Shown in pieces: positions 3,293 through 26,724 of a stretch of DNA of 64,000 bases. Source of the stretch: Acinetobacter boissieri (GTDB lineage Bacteria > Pseudomonadota > Gammaproteobacteria > Pseudomonadales > Moraxellaceae); contig NZ_FMYL01000009.1 in the NCBI RefSeq assembly GCF_900096955.1, forward strand, positions 62,001-126,000, written 5' to 3'. Each line of letters begins with the position of its first letter. Within the stretch, counting starts at the first letter, position 1. Under the pieces are notes generated by a model. It worked only from the letters and a program-made list of their open reading frames with translations. It did no database searches and was not told where the DNA came from. A program made the translations under genes and the position numbers.

Positions 3293-3847
3293 TTACATAA
3301 CAATACCACAGGCGATACGACCACCACCACCACCAAGCGGTTTTGGTGTATCTGAATAGTTATCTCCACCACTGTGTATAACAATCGCATGACCTTTAAC
3401 ATCGGCAAGTTTTAAACGTGGTGCGAAGCTAGTTTCTTTCACACGGCCATCTGCTTGTGCAGTTAAAAATGGTAAATCACCAAGATGCCCTGTTAATGGT
3501 GTGCCGTGGTGCTCTGCGTGATTCGGATTCAAGTGCCCACCCGCAGCTAAAGCAGGGCCAACTTTCCCATCTTTACCCAAGGTTCCACATGAACCATATT
3601 CATGCACATGAAATCCGTGAGGACCTGATGGGATGTTTGTAAAGTCTGTTAAAATTTTTAACCCTTGAGACGTATCTTGCAGAGTTACCGTTCCTAGCTT
3701 CTCACCTATACCTTGTTGTGATACTGCGTAAACACTCACTTTTTCTTTGGGTTTTTGATTAAATGAATAAAAAGTATTACAGCCTGTCATAATTAACACA
3801 CTTGAAATACACAAACCGAATGTCTTATAAAAATGGTTAATATTCAT
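3293..3847 (-). CDS. sodC: Cu/Zn superoxide dismutase, lipoprotein
   Basis: SodC dismutes superoxide in the periplasm. The 184-residue product has a lipoprotein signal with lipobox IMTGC (Cys23), so the enzyme should be lipid-anchored. Copper ligands are visible in GFHVHEYGSC (His80, His82), and zinc/copper ligands in GGHLNPNHAEHHG and HAIVIHSGGDNYSD. Cys87 and Cys180 form the usual disulfide. The glycine-rich GGGGGRIACG at the C-terminus is typical of the family. ATG at 3847 has AGGAAAAAATCA before it. It is a single-gene unit flanked by long intergenic stretches. Confidence 0.96.
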   Translation of the reverse strand: MNINHFYKTFGLCISSVLIMTGCNTFYSFNQKPKEKVSVYAVSQQGIGEKLGTVTLQDTSQGLKILTDFTNIPSGPHGFHVHEYGSCGTLGKDGKVGPALAAGGHLNPNHAEHHGTPLTGHLGDLPFLTAQADGRVKETSFAPRLKLADVKGHAIVIHSGGDNYSDTPKPLGGGGGRIACGIVM

Positions 3848-4323: not shown

Positions 4324-4884
4324 CTATAAATTTTGATTTTTATCCATTGGTATACTCACCTTTATAATTTTCCAACTTAAACCATCTCTCTCCAATATCA
4401 CTTTAACCTGCTTATACTTCTCTTGCGTAGCAATTGTGATTTCAAACTCGTTTATAGACAAATACTGTGTTGAGTAATTTTCTGTTGCTGTCTGATTTGG
4501 TTGCACTTGAATTGGGTTATTTGTATTTTTAATTTGAGAGTCTAAATTTAAATTCACTGTTTTACCCTGCATCATCAGGGTAAGACCTTCAGGTGTTACA
4601 ACTAAATCTGTTATTTTATCCACCATAACTAATGCAAACATTTGACCAAGCCCTTCCATACCTTCATGTTTCGAAGGATCCATTTGTTTTGTTAAATATG
4701 TGTTCATTTGAGCTTTCAAATTTTGTCGAACACTTGGAAAATCAACATAGCTAGCGACTTTTGCACTGTCATTGGCATTTATTGCACTTTTGAGATTATT
4801 GAGCATAATATACGGAGATACATAAATATAACCGCCTATCAATAAAGTGACAGTGACCATTGCCACAATAATTTTTTTATTCAT
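4324..4884 (-). CDS. DUF2939 domain protein, membrane-anchored
   Basis: The 186-residue product has one N-terminal membrane helix (about residues 5-22, IIVAMVTVTLLIGGYIYV) followed by a periplasmic domain. The YVSPYIMLNNLKSAINANDSAKVASYVDFPSVRQ start is the hallmark of DUF2939 proteins: an aromatic region, a helix, then a D-F-P-x-(V/L)-R motif. The function of the family is unknown. The shape (anchor plus short NTF2-like fold with sheet at the end) suggests a periplasmic binding or lipid-handling role, but that is inference. It is monocistronic. ATG at 4884 follows a weak AGAGAAGAC site. Confidence 0.85.
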   Translation of the reverse strand: MNKKIIVAMVTVTLLIGGYIYVSPYIMLNNLKSAINANDSAKVASYVDFPSVRQNLKAQMNTYLTKQMDPSKHEGMEGLGQMFALVMVDKITDLVVTPEGLTLMMQGKTVNLNLDSQIKNTNNPIQVQPNQTATENYSTQYLSINEFEITIATQEKYKQVKVILERDGLSWKIIKVSIPMDKNQNL

Positions 4885-5288
4885 GTAGTCTTCTCTGCTA
4901 TTTAATTTACATTACATCTTTTTTATTTCAGACAATCGTGACTTAATTGCGATATCTGATTGGCTTAGCACAACCACACAGATAAAGATCTCTCATTTCA
5001 AAAGAGGTTCACAACTTAACTCTGTAATATTATTAACGATATAACCCTACTGAGCATCCCTTTTGATTAGGCAGCTATAAAGTACTTAATACAATATAAG
5101 TAAGTGGTTTATATACCATAGCTATAATTTTTAAAAACCGACTCGCAAAATTAAAGATTAAACTTTAATTTACACTTCAGTTACAAAATAAATTATTTTT
5201 AGCGAAACTTTTTAGCAAAACAAAACGAACTATATATAAGGATATGTATTAAAACATACGCCTACTCATGAATATAGGAACTAGACTT
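4885..5288. other. Intergenic upstream of the peroxiredoxin operon
   Basis: This is 404 bases between divergent genes (DUF2939 on minus, peroxiredoxin on plus). It must hold both promoters. A candidate ECF-type promoter at 5180-5206 is listed separately. There are no ORFs or repeats. Confidence 0.5.
5180..5206 (+). promoter_or_regulatory. Candidate ECF sigma promoter (GTTACA - 17 bases - CGAA)
   Basis: GTTACA at 5180-5185 is followed after 17 bases by CGAA at 5203-5206, about 80 bases upstream of the peroxiredoxin start. It resembles the GTAAC...CGAA type of element used by SigF-like ECF factors that pair with NrsF anti-sigma factors. One match in AT-rich DNA is weak evidence; the operon contains its own ECF factor, which makes self-control likely. 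Confidence 0.3.
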
Positions 5289-5861
5289 ATGATAAATTTT
5301 AACACCAAAAAACGATCTAGCTTAATAACAACATCTATGCTGGCTGTATCTCTTGGCGTAGCCTCTTTAGCAACCCATGCGGCTTTACCTATAAATAGTA
5401 CTGCCCCATCTTTTACTGCAAATGCAGCACTTGCAGGTAAAGACTTTAGTTTTTCTTTAGACAAAGCACTTAAAAAAGGACCTGTAGTACTGTACTTCTT
5501 CCCTGTTGCCTTTTCTTCAGGCTGTACTTTAGAGGCACATGCTTTTGCTGAGGCATCAGATTCATTTAATGCTAAAGGCGCAACAGTCTATGGCATTACT
5601 GCTGGTAACGTAGAGAAAATTAAAGAGTTTTCAGCACAAGAATGTCGTAATAAATTTGCAATTATTGCAGATCCAGGGGCTAAAATTGCAAAAGAATATG
5701 ACAGTTTAATGGTTGGAAAAGATAAACTTTTATCTAATCGTACCTCATACGTTATTACACCAGATCACAAAGTACTTATGTCTTATACAGATAGTAATCC
5801 TGAAATGCATATCCATAAAACCATGGATGCTGTTACTGAATGGCAAAAAATAAAAAAATAA
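5289..5861 (+). CDS. Periplasmic peroxiredoxin (BCP/PrxQ-like)
   Basis: This thiol peroxidase reduces peroxides with a catalytic cysteine. The 190-residue product has a Sec signal peptide (residues 1-31, ending ASLATHA), so it acts in the periplasm. The peroxidatic motif FFPVAFSSGCT places Cys79 in the usual P-x3-T/S-x2-C frame (serine replaces threonine). A second cysteine, Cys119 in AQEC, is a possible resolving residue. I chose ATG 5289 because TAGGA precedes it; an upstream ATG at 5268 adds seven residues in front of the signal. It heads a tight plus-strand unit: the DsbD-like gene begins 33 bases on, then the ECF sigma and anti-sigma genes. The DsbD-like protein is the likely electron donor. 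Confidence 0.9.
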   Translation: MINFNTKKRSSLITTSMLAVSLGVASLATHAALPINSTAPSFTANAALAGKDFSFSLDKALKKGPVVLYFFPVAFSSGCTLEAHAFAEASDSFNAKGATVYGITAGNVEKIKEFSAQECRNKFAIIADPGAKIAKEYDSLMVGKDKLLSNRTSYVITPDHKVLMSYTDSNPEMHIHKTMDAVTEWQKIKK

Positions 5862-5894
5862 AAACTCGCCTTTAATCTTAAAGAGATCATCATC

Positions 5895-7145
5895 ATGCTT
5901 GTCGCAATTTTATCTGCCTTTTTAGGTGGGCTTATTTTAAATTTTATGCCCTGTGTTTTTCCTATTATTTCTTTTAAAATTATGGGATTAATCGGACATA
6001 TAGACGATAAAAATCGCCTACGCAAAGAAGGTATTGCCTTTATGGTTGGCGTGATTGTTTCAATGCTGGCCTTAACTGGTGTATTACTGGCGTTACGGGC
6101 AGGTGGTGAAGCAATAGGCTGGGGTTTTCAATTACAATCGCCAAAAATAGTCACTGTACTTGCTCTAATTATATTGGCATCTGCACTTAATTTGTCTGGT
6201 GTATTTGAAGCAGGTTTAAGACTACAACGTGTTGGTCAGAACCAAAATGGAAAAAGTGGTATTTACGGTGCAGCCTTAACAGGTGCTTTAGCTATTGTTG
6301 TGGCTACGCCGTGTACCGCTCCATTTATGGCCAGTGCAGTCAGTTATGCATCGGTGCAAAGTACACCTGTCGCTTTAGCTATATTTGTAAGCTTGGCTAT
6401 AGGCTTTGCGACCCCATTTACTTTACTTTCCTTTGCTCCAAGTTTGTCTAAAAAACTACCTAAACCAGGGGCATGGATGGAAACATTAAAGCATTTCTTG
6501 GCTTTTCCAATGTATGCTGCCACTGCTTGGTTGGTATGGGTTGTAGCACAACAAACTGATGCGTCTGGGCTTGCGAGTGTTTTAATGTGCTGTGTGATTT
6601 TAGCTTTGACTGCTTGGGTGTATGGTCTAGCACAGCGCCGTGCACTATTAGAAAAGAAATCTGTGTGGCAGTACTGTATCACTATAGGCTTATTGGCAAT
6701 CATCCTTTATCTAATTTTCAGCCCAGCAAGTACGTTACAAATCAAAGAAAATACACAAACAACCACAGGCCAAATTAGTCATCAGCCCAATAAAGCAACA
6801 GCAATAAAATGGTCCCCTGTAGCATTAGCAGATGCTCAAAAAACGCACCGCCCTATTTTTATAGACTTCAATGCATCTTGGTGTATTACTTGTCAAGTTA
6901 ACGATAAAAACGTAATCTCTACAGATGAAGTGCAAACGGCATTATTAAAAACTAATACTGTTTATATGGTTGCTGACTCTACAAATTATAACGTAGATAT
7001 TGTGAAAGCTATGGCAGACTACGGACGCGATGGCCTACCATTATATGTCATTTACCCTGCAAATGGTGGTAAACCCGTTATTTTACCGCAAGTACTTACC
7101 AAATCTGGTTTTATTACCGCATTAGAACAAGCAGCAAAACTATAA
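5895..7145 (+). CDS. DsbD/ScsB-like membrane thiol reductant carrier with C-terminal thioredoxin domain
   Basis: The protein carries electrons from cytoplasmic thioredoxin across the inner membrane. The first 285 residues form the CcdA/DsbD-beta membrane domain of about eight helices with the paired cysteines in NFMPCVFPI (Cys20) and VVATPCTAPFM. The end (about 310-416) is a periplasmic thioredoxin domain with active site WCITC and the cis-proline segment GLPLYVIY. The N-terminal alpha domain of E. coli DsbD, the one that hands electrons to DsbC, is missing. That suggests another partner, most simply the peroxiredoxin encoded 33 bases upstream. AAAGAGATC precedes the ATG. The sigma factor gene follows after 16 bases. 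Confidence 0.9.
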   Translation: MLVAILSAFLGGLILNFMPCVFPIISFKIMGLIGHIDDKNRLRKEGIAFMVGVIVSMLALTGVLLALRAGGEAIGWGFQLQSPKIVTVLALIILASALNLSGVFEAGLRLQRVGQNQNGKSGIYGAALTGALAIVVATPCTAPFMASAVSYASVQSTPVALAIFVSLAIGFATPFTLLSFAPSLSKKLPKPGAWMETLKHFLAFPMYAATAWLVWVVAQQTDASGLASVLMCCVILALTAWVYGLAQRRALLEKKSVWQYCITIGLLAIILYLIFSPASTLQIKENTQTTTGQISHQPNKATAIKWSPVALADAQKTHRPIFIDFNASWCITCQVNDKNVISTDEVQTALLKTNTVYMVADSTNYNVDIVKAMADYGRDGLPLYVIYPANGGKPVILPQVLTKSGFITALEQAAKL

Positions 7146-7161
7146 TATTAAGAGGTGTTCC

Positions 7162-7740
7162 TTGGGCAAATTCGTTTCAAAAACATCGAAAGAATTTGCA
7201 CCTCAAACGCAGTGGTCTGAACTTATGCGTTTATCACAGCTAGGAAATGAAGATGCATATCGGCAACTGTTACATGCAATTGCACCTGCAATTGAACGTT
7301 TTGCATGCTACAAAGTGAGCGATCACTCAATTATTGATGATATTGTGCAAGATAGCTTAATGAGCATACATACACTTCGCCATACTTATGACCCCAAGCG
7401 GCCAATACTGCCATGGATTGTTGCAATTACTTCTGCACGTGCCATCGATATTGTTCGAAAATATAATCGACATTGGAAAAGAGAAATACACGATGAATTA
7501 CTTTTACAACACATTGTTGATGAATCTTATGACAATGATTTAGAGCATGAAGAAAATGTACACCAGCTCAATGGTTTACTAAAACACTTAACACCAGCGC
7601 AACGGGAAATTATACAACTGGTTAAACTTGATGAACTCAGTTTAGATGAAACATCAAAAAAAACAGGGCTATCCATCGCTGCTGTAAAGTCCTTGTTACA
7701 TCGCGCTTTAACAACATTACGGCATTATGGTAGAGATTAA
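7162..7740 (+). CDS. ECF-type RNA polymerase sigma factor (SigF-like)
   Basis: The 192-residue alternative sigma factor directs RNA polymerase to a small stress regulon. Region 2 lies at about residues 30-100 and includes DDIVQDSLMSIHTLRHTYDP and PWIVAITSARAIDIVRK. Region 4 lies at about 138-190 (LTPAQREIIQLVKLDELSLDE with the helix-turn-helix SIAAVKSLLHRALTTLR). The start is TTG at 7162, supported by AGAGGTG 4-5 bases upstream at 7151-7157; no ATG lies at the right distance. The anti-sigma gene follows with a 2-base gap, a classic co-regulated pair. The two upstream genes are probably its targets and it likely controls its own operon. Confidence 0.92.
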   Translation: MGKFVSKTSKEFAPQTQWSELMRLSQLGNEDAYRQLLHAIAPAIERFACYKVSDHSIIDDIVQDSLMSIHTLRHTYDPKRPILPWIVAITSARAIDIVRKYNRHWKREIHDELLLQHIVDESYDNDLEHEENVHQLNGLLKHLTPAQREIIQLVKLDELSLDETSKKTGLSIAAVKSLLHRALTTLRHYGRD

Positions 7741-7742
7741 TC

Positions 7743-8381
7743 ATGAATCAAAACACATTACAAGATTTAATTAATCGACTCTCGCATGACTTAAAACCTG
7801 TTAAACCGTTACCTCATATTGCAATGGTCACTGCCATTTGGGCAATGACTTTACTCGGTCTAGGATTTAGCTCTGCCTATTTATTAGATGCATCACCTAA
7901 AGCATGGCACCTGCCGAATGCTTGGCCAAGCATTTTAAATTGGTTTTTTTCTATATGTATTGGTATATGGGCACTGGCACACACCTTTCAGTCACAAATT
8001 CCGGGCTATAAATTTAACCGTGGGTTATTTACCCTTGTACTTACAGTGTGGTTCATTGTTAATTTATCTAGTTTACTTACATCAACACAACCACTTGAAC
8101 ATTTAGGACACAGTACGCCGTGCTATTTTTTTGTGGTTGCGACAGGTATACCCATGCTCATACTCAGTATATTCTTTTTAAAAAAATATACTTTTATTGA
8201 TCGATTAAAGACCATAAAATTGCTCAGCTTAAGTACTATTTTTTTATCTTTTTCACTACTTTCTTTATGTCATTCACCACATATGAGTATCAATGATTTT
8301 TTTATGCATTTACTCGGGGCATTAACCCTAACAGCATTTTGCTTTGGATTAGGTTATCAATATTTAACACACAAACATTAG
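7743..8381 (+). CDS. NrsF-type anti-sigma factor (DUF1109), six membrane helices
   Basis: This 212-residue integral membrane protein has about six hydrophobic helices and a short cytoplasmic N-terminus (LQDLINRLSHDLKPVKPLP). That matches the DUF1109/NrsF family, known in Caulobacter to hold SigF at the membrane until stress. Two cysteine-containing loop or helix-end segments are visible: HSTPCYFF near residue 126 and LLSLCHSPH near 178. Conserved cysteines in this family are thought to sense the signal, so the pair fits a redox or metal trigger, though the spacing differs from a classic CxxC. It starts 2 bases after the sigma gene. No terminator was seen after it. Confidence 0.88.
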   Translation: MNQNTLQDLINRLSHDLKPVKPLPHIAMVTAIWAMTLLGLGFSSAYLLDASPKAWHLPNAWPSILNWFFSICIGIWALAHTFQSQIPGYKFNRGLFTLVLTVWFIVNLSSLLTSTQPLEHLGHSTPCYFFVVATGIPMLILSIFFLKKYTFIDRLKTIKLLSLSTIFLSFSLLSLCHSPHMSINDFFMHLLGALTLTAFCFGLGYQYLTHKH

Positions 8382-8853
8382 TTCTACTTTCTTAGGCTAT
8401 GTATGCATGCCATATTTTTATATGGTTCCGTATTTATATAAACCAAATCAACACTTTTACAGGTTTTTTCTGTTGCGCAAATATCTAACACCCATATTTT
8501 TAGTGGTTTGTATATTGCTCATAAGGTCATGTAAATGCTTTTAACCCAAAAAATCATTTAAAATAATATACTTATCATTTTAATTATTTATCTCACAAAA
8601 CGCTTCAAATATAATATATCTCATACCAACAATAATTTTCCTCTAAATAAAAATGGATTTTTCTAATACTCTGTTTATAATAATTCAAATAATGAGGTAA
8701 ATTCTATCTTTCAAACTAAGTAAAACATGACTATGTTCACCATAACTATAATTCACATTTAATAAAAACGGTTAAAAAAATAACTCACCCCAAATCACAT
8801 CAAGTAATACTTTTGTTAAAAAACATATGACCAAGTTTATATTCTTAATAAAA
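8382..8853. other. Long AT-rich intergenic region, nothing seen
   Basis: About 470 bases lie between the end of the anti-sigma gene and the terminator of the bL36 gene. Only short frames are present, none with a ribosome-binding site. No convincing hairpin ends the sigma operon here. Confidence 0.5.
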
Positions 8854-8880
8854 AAAACCAAAGCAATATGCTTTGGTTTT
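8854..8880 (-). terminator. Intrinsic terminator of the bL36 paralog
   Basis: AAAACCAAAGC (8854-8864) pairs perfectly with GCTTTGGTTTT (8870-8880) across a 5-base loop. On the minus strand it begins 6 bases after the bL36 stop and is followed by a run of T. The A-rich flank on the other side makes it usable in both directions. Confidence 0.85.
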
Positions 8881-8885
8881 TTATT

Positions 8886-9011
8886 TCAGCCTTGTCTAGC
8901 TTTAAAACGAGGATTTGATTTACAGATAACGAATATCTTTCCTCGACGGCGTACGATTTGACAATCCGAAGATCTTTTTTTTGCGGTTTTTAATGATGAT
9001 AAGACTTGCAT
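8886..9011 (-). CDS. ykgO: Zinc-independent ribosomal protein bL36 paralog (type B, YkgO)
   Basis: This 41-residue protein reads [13 protein letters not shown] at the start and [19 protein letters not shown] in the middle. That identifies it as bL36 of the C-minus type, in which the four zinc ligands of ordinary bL36 are not conserved (only two isolated cysteines remain). In other bacteria this paralog replaces the zinc-ribbon form on 50S subunits during zinc starvation. GGAGA lies just upstream of the ATG at 9011. A perfect Zur-box core lies about 21 bases before the start, and a strong terminator sits directly after the stop. It is too small to be found by length-based gene callers. Confidence 0.93.
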
Positions 9012-25667: not shown

Positions 25668-26156
25668 TTATTTTTGAGCTAAAGCATTTTCAATATCACC
25701 ACTTATTGTGTCAGGCTTTACTGTAGGTGCATAACGTGCAATCACCTGACCGTCTCGTCCGACTAAAAACTTAGTGAAGTTCCATTTAATGCTTTGTGTA
25801 CCCAAAACACCTTTTGCTGCTCGGGTTAAAAAGCGAAATACGGGGTGTGCTTCAGGGCCTTTTACATCTATTTTGGCAAACATAGTAAAACTAACACCGT
25901 AGTTTTTTTGGCAAAATGTTTCGATTTCTGTATGCGTACCGGGGTCTTGCCCACCAAACTGATTACATGGAAAACCCAAAACTTCCAAACCTTCTGACTT
26001 GTATTGTTCGTATAGTTTTTCTAGCCCTGCAAACTGTGGAGTAAAACCACATTTACTGGCTGTATTTACAATTAAAAGTACCTTTCCTTCATAATCTAAA
26101 AAGTATTTTTCTTTACCACTAAGTAAGTCCGCCTGTAGTTGATAAATTGTGGTCAT
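25668..26156 (-). CDS. Glutathione peroxidase-type thiol peroxidase
   Basis: The 162-residue cytoplasmic peroxidase has the peroxidatic cysteine in [11 protein letters not shown] (Cys36), the second catalytic pair in [12 protein letters not shown] and WNFTKFLV. The enzyme uses cysteine, not selenocysteine. Bacterial members of this shape, like BtuE, usually take electrons from thioredoxin as well as glutathione. The ATG overlaps the msrB stop as ATGA (26153-26156), so the two are translationally coupled, which points to shared oxidative damage repair. Confidence 0.95.
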
Positions 26157-26572
26157 GGGTAACTCTCTCCATCATTCTTTTCTTCTGTTTTTAATGTTAA
26201 TGATGCTGAATTGACACAGTAACGAAGTCCCGTCGGTTGTGGCCCATCTTCAAAAACATGCCCCAAATGCGCACCACAACGTTCACAGGTAATTTCTGTG
26301 CGCATCATACCAAGGGTTGAATCTTCTTGTTCTGCAACAACTGTTTGATTGGCTGGTTTAAAAAAGCTTGGCCAACCACAACCACTATCATATTTGGAAT
26401 CTGATAAAAACAACACTTCACCACAGCATTTACAACTGTACTGCCCTGCTTGTTTAGTATTCCAATATTGCCCTGTAAACGGCGCTTCAGTACCTTTTTG
26501 TCGTGTAACACGATACTCCTCTGCAGAGAGTTCTCTTCGCCATTCACGATCTGTTTTATTGACTTTTCCCAT
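26153..26572 (-). CDS. msrB: Peptide methionine-(R)-S-oxide reductase
   Basis: MsrB repairs the R-form of methionine sulfoxide. The 139-residue protein has zinc-binding pairs CKCCG and CERCG, the GCGWPSF active-site segment, [12 protein letters not shown] and the catalytic cysteine in [12 protein letters not shown] 26572 has AAGGAAG upstream; an earlier ATG at 26602 has nothing. It is the first gene of an msrB-gpx pair and divergent from alaA. The C-terminal tail overlaps the glutathione peroxidase start. Confidence 0.97.
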
Positions 26573-26724
26573 GACAACTTCCTTGAAAGATATAAAATTC
26601 AATATCGCATGTTATTGTCTTTATATTTACGCTACCGCAGACTAAAATGCTAGAAAAATTTCAAGTAGATTGTGCTATTTAAGTAATCTATTTTCTTTTA
26701 ACATACATATAATTGGACAACACT

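Follow-up and report, generated by a model that had tools for sequence, protein, structure and literature searches.

We analysed a 64,000-nucleotide stretch of the Acinetobacter boissieri genome (contig NZ_FMYL01000009.1, positions 62,001 to 126,000; the whole stretch is called the window here) with regard to a four-gene operon which encodes a peroxiredoxin, a DsbD-like membrane carrier, an extracytoplasmic function (ECF) sigma factor and an NrsF-type anti-sigma factor. The operon is a conserved unit found in a few Acinetobacter and in many plant-associated bacteria, and is not an Acinetobacter oddity. Based on the gene unit, its invariant cysteines, a topology model, a differing -35 element and a promoter which is conserved with the sigma factor and absent without it, the operon probably forms a closed-loop, autoregulated envelope peroxide defence, and its regulators are best read as a private branch of ECF16/NrsF signalling. 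The first-pass annotation of this DNA had proposed that sensor, regulator, enzyme and electron supply are encoded in one self-contained unit with the effector genes placed first; gene order, the promoter and the comparison of loci support this arrangement, and the interpretation as a whole is partly supported.

The operon and its proteins

The four genes lie on the forward strand (5289-8381) with intergenic gaps of 33, 16 and 2 bases, as the first-pass annotation had described; the open reading frames (ORFs; 5268-5861, 5895-7145, 7162-7740 and 7743-8381, all on the forward strand) and Pfam matches confirm this unit. Its features are as follows:

5203..5229, forward strand: predicted conserved ECF-type promoter, CGAAAC-N17-CGAA, with the -35 element at 5203-5208 and the -10 element at 5226-5229
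5289..5861, forward strand: predicted exported peroxiredoxin of 190 amino acids from the ATG at 5289; Pfam AhpC-TSA/Redoxin; Cys79 and Cys119
5895..7145, forward strand: predicted alpha-less DsbD-like membrane reductant carrier; Pfam DsbD_TM and Thioredoxin_7, no DsbD_N
7162..7740, forward strand: ECF sigma factor, TTG as first possible start; Pfam Sigma70_r2/r4 and NCBIfam
7743..8381, forward strand: NrsF/DUF1109-type anti-sigma factor; Pfam NrsF; Cys127 and Cys176

The operon was compared across 82 loci, namely the best 80 of the matches listed in a scan of GTDB contigs, the window's own locus (L005) and that of a second Acinetobacter genome (L006, from G048). The order and strand of all four genes are kept in 57 of them, the window included, which is more than chance; three loci contain the peroxiredoxin and carrier genes only, and 22 contain longer carriers without a peroxiredoxin in the flanks examined. 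The pairwise distances among the four proteins correlate (r 0.91-0.93), a pattern as in jointly inherited genes. Invariant in all 57 operons are Cys79 and Cys119 of the peroxiredoxin, C20, C140, C330 and C333 of the carrier, and C127, C176 and His177 of the NrsF protein.

Concerning the peroxiredoxin, the start is best placed at the ATG at 5289 and not at 5268, because the relatives in G048 and G087 start there; numbered from this codon, the peroxidatic Cys79 of the first-pass annotation is right. The peroxidatic cysteine motif of peroxiredoxins, P-x3-(T/S)-x2-C, is present as PVAFSSGC, and the second cysteine, as expected of a periplasmic 2-Cys peroxiredoxin, is Cys119; from the sequence, Cys79 is the peroxidatic and Cys119 the likely resolving residue. 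The AlphaFold model (pLDDT 82.7) finds its top PDB match in BcpB (5epf; template modelling score 0.70 by query length and 0.86 by target length). The signal peptide was assigned by eye, and the model has low confidence across most of residues 1-29.

The carrier comprises a transmembrane part (residues 3-214, with C20 and C140) and a thioredoxin part (residues 304-389, with C330-I-T-C333). Compared with DsbD of E. coli, the transmembrane domain and the C-terminal thioredoxin domain are common to both, whereas the window carrier lacks a DsbD_N match and is too short at its N-terminus to hold the alpha domain, as the first-pass annotation had noted; the full alpha/beta/gamma set of DsbD is hence not found. 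The cysteine pair in the transmembrane part and the CxxC in the thioredoxin part are present in 57 of 57 operons. The N-terminal extension measures 0-8 amino acids in all 60 peroxiredoxin-linked carriers and 192-387 amino acids in all 22 carriers without a peroxiredoxin, each of which matches DsbD_N. Because the alpha domain is absent from all 60, what was first described as truncated is the usual build of this carrier subfamily. We infer from these sequences that the peroxiredoxin stands in for the alpha domain in accepting electrons from the carrier's thioredoxin domain, and propose that the alpha domain is unneeded because its acceptor place is so taken. The carrier could instead be a general periplasmic disulfide reductant with which the peroxiredoxin is co-regulated without being its partner. 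The three Acinetobacter genomes with the operon each have two matches to the carrier, so that other DsbD-like proteins exist; the alpha-less form and peroxiredoxin adjacency nevertheless coincide throughout the DNA examined (60/60 vs 0/22), and we consider this alternative quite unlikely. In the ScsB/PRXL pathway of Caulobacter a membrane carrier reportedly reduces an envelope peroxiredoxin; we know of no ECF sigma factor or NrsF gene linked to that pathway.

The Pfam NrsF match of the fourth protein is modest (30.9 bits vs a cut-off of 26.8, covering profile positions 1-142 of 204), the G048 copy goes unmatched by the Pfam model in the family search, and NCBIfam gave no family for the protein; despite the modest score, the assignment is backed by alignment and topology. 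Its AlphaFold model (pLDDT 89.3) contains helices at residues 3-16, 26-47, 61-83, 93-113, 121-146, 154-174 and 183-209, and the protein is thus modelled as an N-terminal helix followed by six long helices taken as transmembrane. With three flanking residues included, the Lys/Arg counts are 3, 2, 4 and 1 in the loops assigned to the cytoplasm and 1, 0 and 0 in the periplasmic loops, a pattern by which C127 and C176 would lie close to the periplasmic face. A solved NrsF structure was not found by sequence search, and the best E value by fold search was 0.095. By position and context, and not by direct alignment, C127/C176 correspond to C129/C179 of OsrA from Bradyrhizobium japonicum and to C131/C181 of Caulobacter NrsF. 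In OsrA, C179 is needed for the release of the sigma factor EcfF by H2O2, and C129 may be required to hold EcfF (PMC3420878), roles with which the predicted placement on the periplasmic side would agree.

The NrsF/DUF1109 gene directly follows the sigma gene in 57 of 57 operons, and the six modelled transmembrane helices go together with two cysteines conserved in all 57. The TTG is the first possible start of the sigma gene in the window and in both other Acinetobacter carriers (L160, L161).

The promoter and its -35 element

The promoter was found by counting spaced words upstream of the peroxiredoxin gene. The strict form CG[A/C]AAC-N15-18-CGAA is present upstream of this gene in 53 of the 57 operons (spacer of 17 in 44 operons and of 16 in nine), with six other sites elsewhere in these loci (617,841 bp in all). 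It occurs once in the 64 kb window, against a mean of 0.3 in 60 Markov draws. A classical GTAAC promoter was also considered: the sole loose match in the window, GTTAC-N17-CGAA at 5180, is absent from both other Acinetobacter carriers, and the conserved site at 5203 was preferred.

For comparison, NrsF loci were taken from a phylum sample in which PF06532 matched in 35 of 200 genomes (36 places); the best 30 places with flanks were used, the window excluded. All 30 have a neighbouring sigma gene, and none has a peroxiredoxin or carrier within about 4 kb. The classical form [T/C]GTAAC-N16/17-CGAA is found in 0 of 57 peroxiredoxin operons within 250 bp upstream; in 53 of them its place is taken by CG[A/C]AAC-N16/17-CGAA, in which the -10 element and spacing are unchanged. 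Counted over whole loci and both strands, GTAAC-N16-18-CGAA is present in 30/30 of the other NrsF loci vs 5/57 peroxiredoxin operons (in no case on the promoter strand), and CG[A/C]AAC-N16-18-CGAA in 2/30 vs 53/57. The classical form appears in 15 of 300 Markov shuffles of the comparison loci, and on the sigma strand, between -500 and +150 of the approximate sigma start, in 19 of the 30 loci themselves. These sequence counts suggest that the -35 preference changed in the peroxiredoxin-linked branch. Because pairing, topology and cysteines fit ECF16/NrsF but the classical promoter is lacking, we treat the regulatory pair as a variant branch which works like that group. Another NrsF locus (L258) has DoxX and MbnB/TglH/ChrH neighbours, the latter of what we take to be the DUF692 family, and recalls the DoxX/DUF692 targets of Caulobacter sigma-F.

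The sigma factors may divide in the same way. In a quick tree, which lacked an outgroup and drew long-branch warnings, the 57 peroxiredoxin-linked sequences lie on one side of a single branch (SH-aLRT, the Shimodaira-Hasegawa-like approximate likelihood ratio test, 99) and the 30 others on the opposite side. Ten columns separate the two sets, two of which are neighbours in the Pfam region-4 match: S177 is present in 55/57 peroxiredoxin-linked sigma factors vs V in 26/30 others, and L178 in 55/57 vs A, S or N in 25/30. These two residues presumably belong to the -35 recognition helix, and S177-L178 are sequence-based candidates for the altered preference.

Four loci contain the peroxiredoxin and carrier genes without the sigma-NrsF pair: L042 (Rouxiella silvae), L059 (Pantoea allii), L071 (Pantoea stewartii) and L262. 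An NrsF profile search matched none of these four genomes, of which completeness is known for one, and matched all four positive-control genomes. The strict promoter is absent from all four loci, even though their peroxiredoxins share 86-94% identity with that of the best relative having the operon; in L059 and L262 decayed copies can be made out by eye. This joint loss is the best evidence, from sequence comparison, that the peroxiredoxin-linked sigma factor would read the peroxiredoxin promoter. In the Rouxiella locus another Redoxin-family gene (L042:6362-6865, reverse strand) adjoins the peroxiredoxin-carrier pair.

Three Acinetobacter genomes (G000, G048 and G087) were scanned whole with the narrower pattern CGMAACNTN{14,16}CGAA, which matched twice in the window genome, four times in G048 and three times in G087. 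Three of these nine matches are the operon promoters and the remaining six all fall within ORFs of 90 or more amino acids; the weakest of the six (L175) is within a 107-amino-acid ORF, roughly 290 bp upstream of another gene. The regulon in these genomes may therefore be the operon alone, although weaker sites would escape the scan. The sigma factor might mainly serve distant genes, the operon being merely a neighbour, and ECF16 regulons can indeed be larger, with 36 (BcrS) and 63 (AbcS) differentially expressed genes in Brucella (PMC8315932). This is very unlikely, given a promoter that stands at the operon in 53/57 cases and is absent where the sigma factor is absent, and given the off-operon matches inside ORFs, even if degenerate motifs would go unseen and L175 is the least secure of the six.

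The proposed loop, its precedents and its rivals

In the proposed loop, the NrsF-type protein would hold the ECF16-like sigma factor at the membrane, and oxidation of the periplasm-facing C127/C176 would free it. The freed sigma factor would transcribe the peroxiredoxin, carrier, sigma and anti-sigma genes from the one promoter at 5203-5229. The peroxiredoxin (Cys79/Cys119) would reduce periplasmic peroxide and would be re-reduced directly by the thioredoxin domain of the carrier (C330/C333), with electrons coming from cytosolic thioredoxin via C20/C140. As peroxide drops, NrsF would recapture the sigma factor. What we infer is that oxidation releases the sigma factor, that the sigma factor uses this promoter, that electrons take this route and that the signal is peroxide and not some other oxidant.

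EcfF-OsrA of B. japonicum, an ECF16 sigma factor with a DUF1109 anti-sigma factor, resembles the window pair in having six transmembrane helices and two cysteines in corresponding places. It is autoregulated and responds to H2O2 and singlet oxygen, and the genes under EcfF control include those of a DsbD-core protein and a predicted periplasmic thioredoxin. It differs from the operon in its methionine sulfoxide reductases (Msr), in its several transcription units, in that no peroxiredoxin is named in the available part of the source, and in its -35 element (GTAAC vs CG[A/C]AAC). BcrS-AbcS of Brucella melitensis is likewise an ECF16 pair with an oxidant response, with the consensus (T/C)GTAAC-N17-CGAA (PMC8315932); unlike the operon, as far as the available text goes, it responds to hypochlorous acid and has a methionine-rich peptide and a putative Msr system, with no peroxiredoxin. 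SigF-NrsF of Caulobacter, the ECF16 prototype, is similar in its sigma/NrsF pair, its two needed cysteines and its GTAACC-N16-CGAA promoter with the same -10 element and near-equal spacing, but it is chromium- and cadmium-responsive and has other targets. By analogy, EcfF-OsrA and BcrS-AbcS are better precedents than SigF-NrsF.

The first-pass annotation had relied on the Caulobacter pair as controlling an oxidative response. This does not agree with the abstract of PMC3511200, which reports a response to chromium and cadmium and no induction by generators of reactive oxygen species for this classical member; the claim may derive from PMC8315932, where SigF is said to mediate the oxidative stress response. 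The Caulobacter result also favours a metal-stress module (chromate, cadmium or copper), in which carrier and peroxiredoxin would repair metal-oxidised thiols. We regard this as unlikely: the Caulobacter sigma-F targets named in the available text (DUF2282, DUF692, DUF2063, DoxX and YedY; PMC3511200) are all missing from the operon.

A further alternative, suggested by the Brucella pair, is that hypochlorite or a different reactive chlorine or thiol oxidant acts as the signal and that peroxide removal is a side duty. This is possible though doubtful, since the effector here is a peroxiredoxin and not an Msr, and since the window NrsF, with 6 Met in 212 amino acids, has one (M181) alone in a modelled periplasmic loop vs eight periplasmic Met in OsrA. 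Returning to the peroxide loop, a more elaborate form of it would make the peroxiredoxin the sensor, passing its disulfide to the NrsF cysteines; the alpha-less carrier would keep both proteins reduced, so that the sigma factor would be freed only when peroxide outruns the electron supply, and the one-base -35 change read by S177/L178 would insulate the branch from other ECF16 systems. We hold this version to be rather improbable.

Several other results weigh, with the Caulobacter data, against the closed loop. The Fisher test for promoter loss with sigma loss (p 1.3e-4) overstates the association, because the four absences amount to some two events, the three Pantoea-like loci being one and Rouxiella the other. 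The persistence of the peroxiredoxin-carrier pair without the regulators implies that enzyme and carrier can be useful outside the loop. The strict site is absent from four operons which do contain the sigma gene (L056, L070, L079 and L084), with near-matches there. The reversed pattern matched more often than the promoter pattern in the three Acinetobacter genomes (21, 18 and 12 times), and for this reason the promoter claim rests on position and conservation and not on counts. Sigma-70-like promoters number 9 in 4850-9000 vs 17.4 in shuffles, which bears on the source of basal sigma factor. Concerning the sample, the 82 loci are the best listed matches to one carrier query and do not form an even sample, and six of the 22 alpha-bearing loci have less than 2 kb of DNA on at least one side, so that a peroxiredoxin there could go unseen.

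Distribution, history and significance

Among 175 Acinetobacter genomes searched with the carrier (E <= 1e-60), three matched: the window genome, G048 (84% identity) and G087 (73%). The co-occurrence by which the first-pass annotation proposed to judge the unit therefore holds in part; the carrier is rare in the genus, while all three genomes that have it contain the full operon in order, as do 47 Enterobacterales loci. In the family sample (249 genomes) the next strongest matches are frames of 719 and 764 amino acids in G068 and G038, with no peroxiredoxin in the DNA examined. At E <= 1e-105 the window alone matched in the class-wide sample (321 genomes), and six genomes, the window included, matched in the phylum sample (299 genomes); the other five comprise two full operons (L261, L263), the peroxiredoxin-carrier pair of L262 and open frames of 870 and 742 amino acids.

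The majority of the 57 operons (47) are found in Enterobacterales, with hosts including Pantoea, Erwinia, Rosenbergiella, Kluyvera, Kosakonia and Enterobacter; four are found in Duganella/Massilia, two in Sphingomonadales, one in Asticcacaulis and three in Acinetobacter. Carrier relatives (E <= 1e-80) are present on 106 of 72,556 plasmid records, 93 of them from Pantoea, and both plasmid records inspected contain the four genes in order. The complete genomes of E. coli gave no nucleotide match to one Kluyvera carrier gene.

The operons of the three Acinetobacter genomes group in a single clade and have differing surroundings. A recent transfer from Enterobacterales to Acinetobacter is unsupported, as the concatenated tree of the 57 loci puts the Acinetobacter clade outside the 47 Enterobacterales on a long branch; this tree is a quick one with a midpoint root, and odd composition was flagged for the three Acinetobacter rows. 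The nearest of 134 sampled genomes, G282 (ClpA 96%; G048 was outside this sample), is not among the three carriers. In its corresponding region (L163, about 4.3-4.6 kb), homology jumps from window position 4484, inside the DUF2939 gene, to 8845, with no trace of the four proteins; its DUF2939 copy is a fragment with stops, and G282 is listed at 9% contamination. A recent insertion in the window genome was considered, and the junction and the broken DUF2939 gene read better as a deletion in G282, which is the likely cause of the absence there.

Just left of the operon lie, on the reverse strand, a gene for a Cu,Zn superoxide dismutase whose N-terminus, judged by eye, resembles a lipobox (3293-3847) and one for a DUF2939 protein (4324-4884). 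A periplasmic superoxide dismutase would produce peroxide that the peroxiredoxin removes; neither gene was found in the examined flanks of the two other Acinetobacter carriers. Elsewhere in the window, apparent glutathione peroxidase and MsrB-like genes, named by eye, are adjacent (25668-26602, reverse strand).

H2O2 suppressed most of the microbes assayed, nectar specialists included (PMC10464699); nectar H2O2 as a driver of the operon is speculation. No account of the four-gene operon was found in the open-access literature searched, subscription papers being outside the search. The first-pass view that no Acinetobacter system of this composition had been described stands to that extent, while the unit is not specific to Acinetobacter. 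Its parts belong to known families; this way of wiring them, under a promoter code of its own, is apparently undescribed.

For annotation, the analysis predicts a joint role for genes which two plasmid records label separately as 'peroxiredoxin', 'thioredoxin family protein', 'sigma-70 family RNA polymerase sigma factor' and 'DUF1109' or 'NrsF family'. Oxidant sensing by NrsF-type anti-sigma factors is apparently unsettled in the literature; as sensor, regulator, enzyme and electron supply are encoded in about 3.2 kb behind one predicted promoter, the whole loop could be transferred to a laboratory strain for dissection. The -35 difference, together with the two region-4 residues, would offer a testable case of sigma factors becoming insulated from each other.

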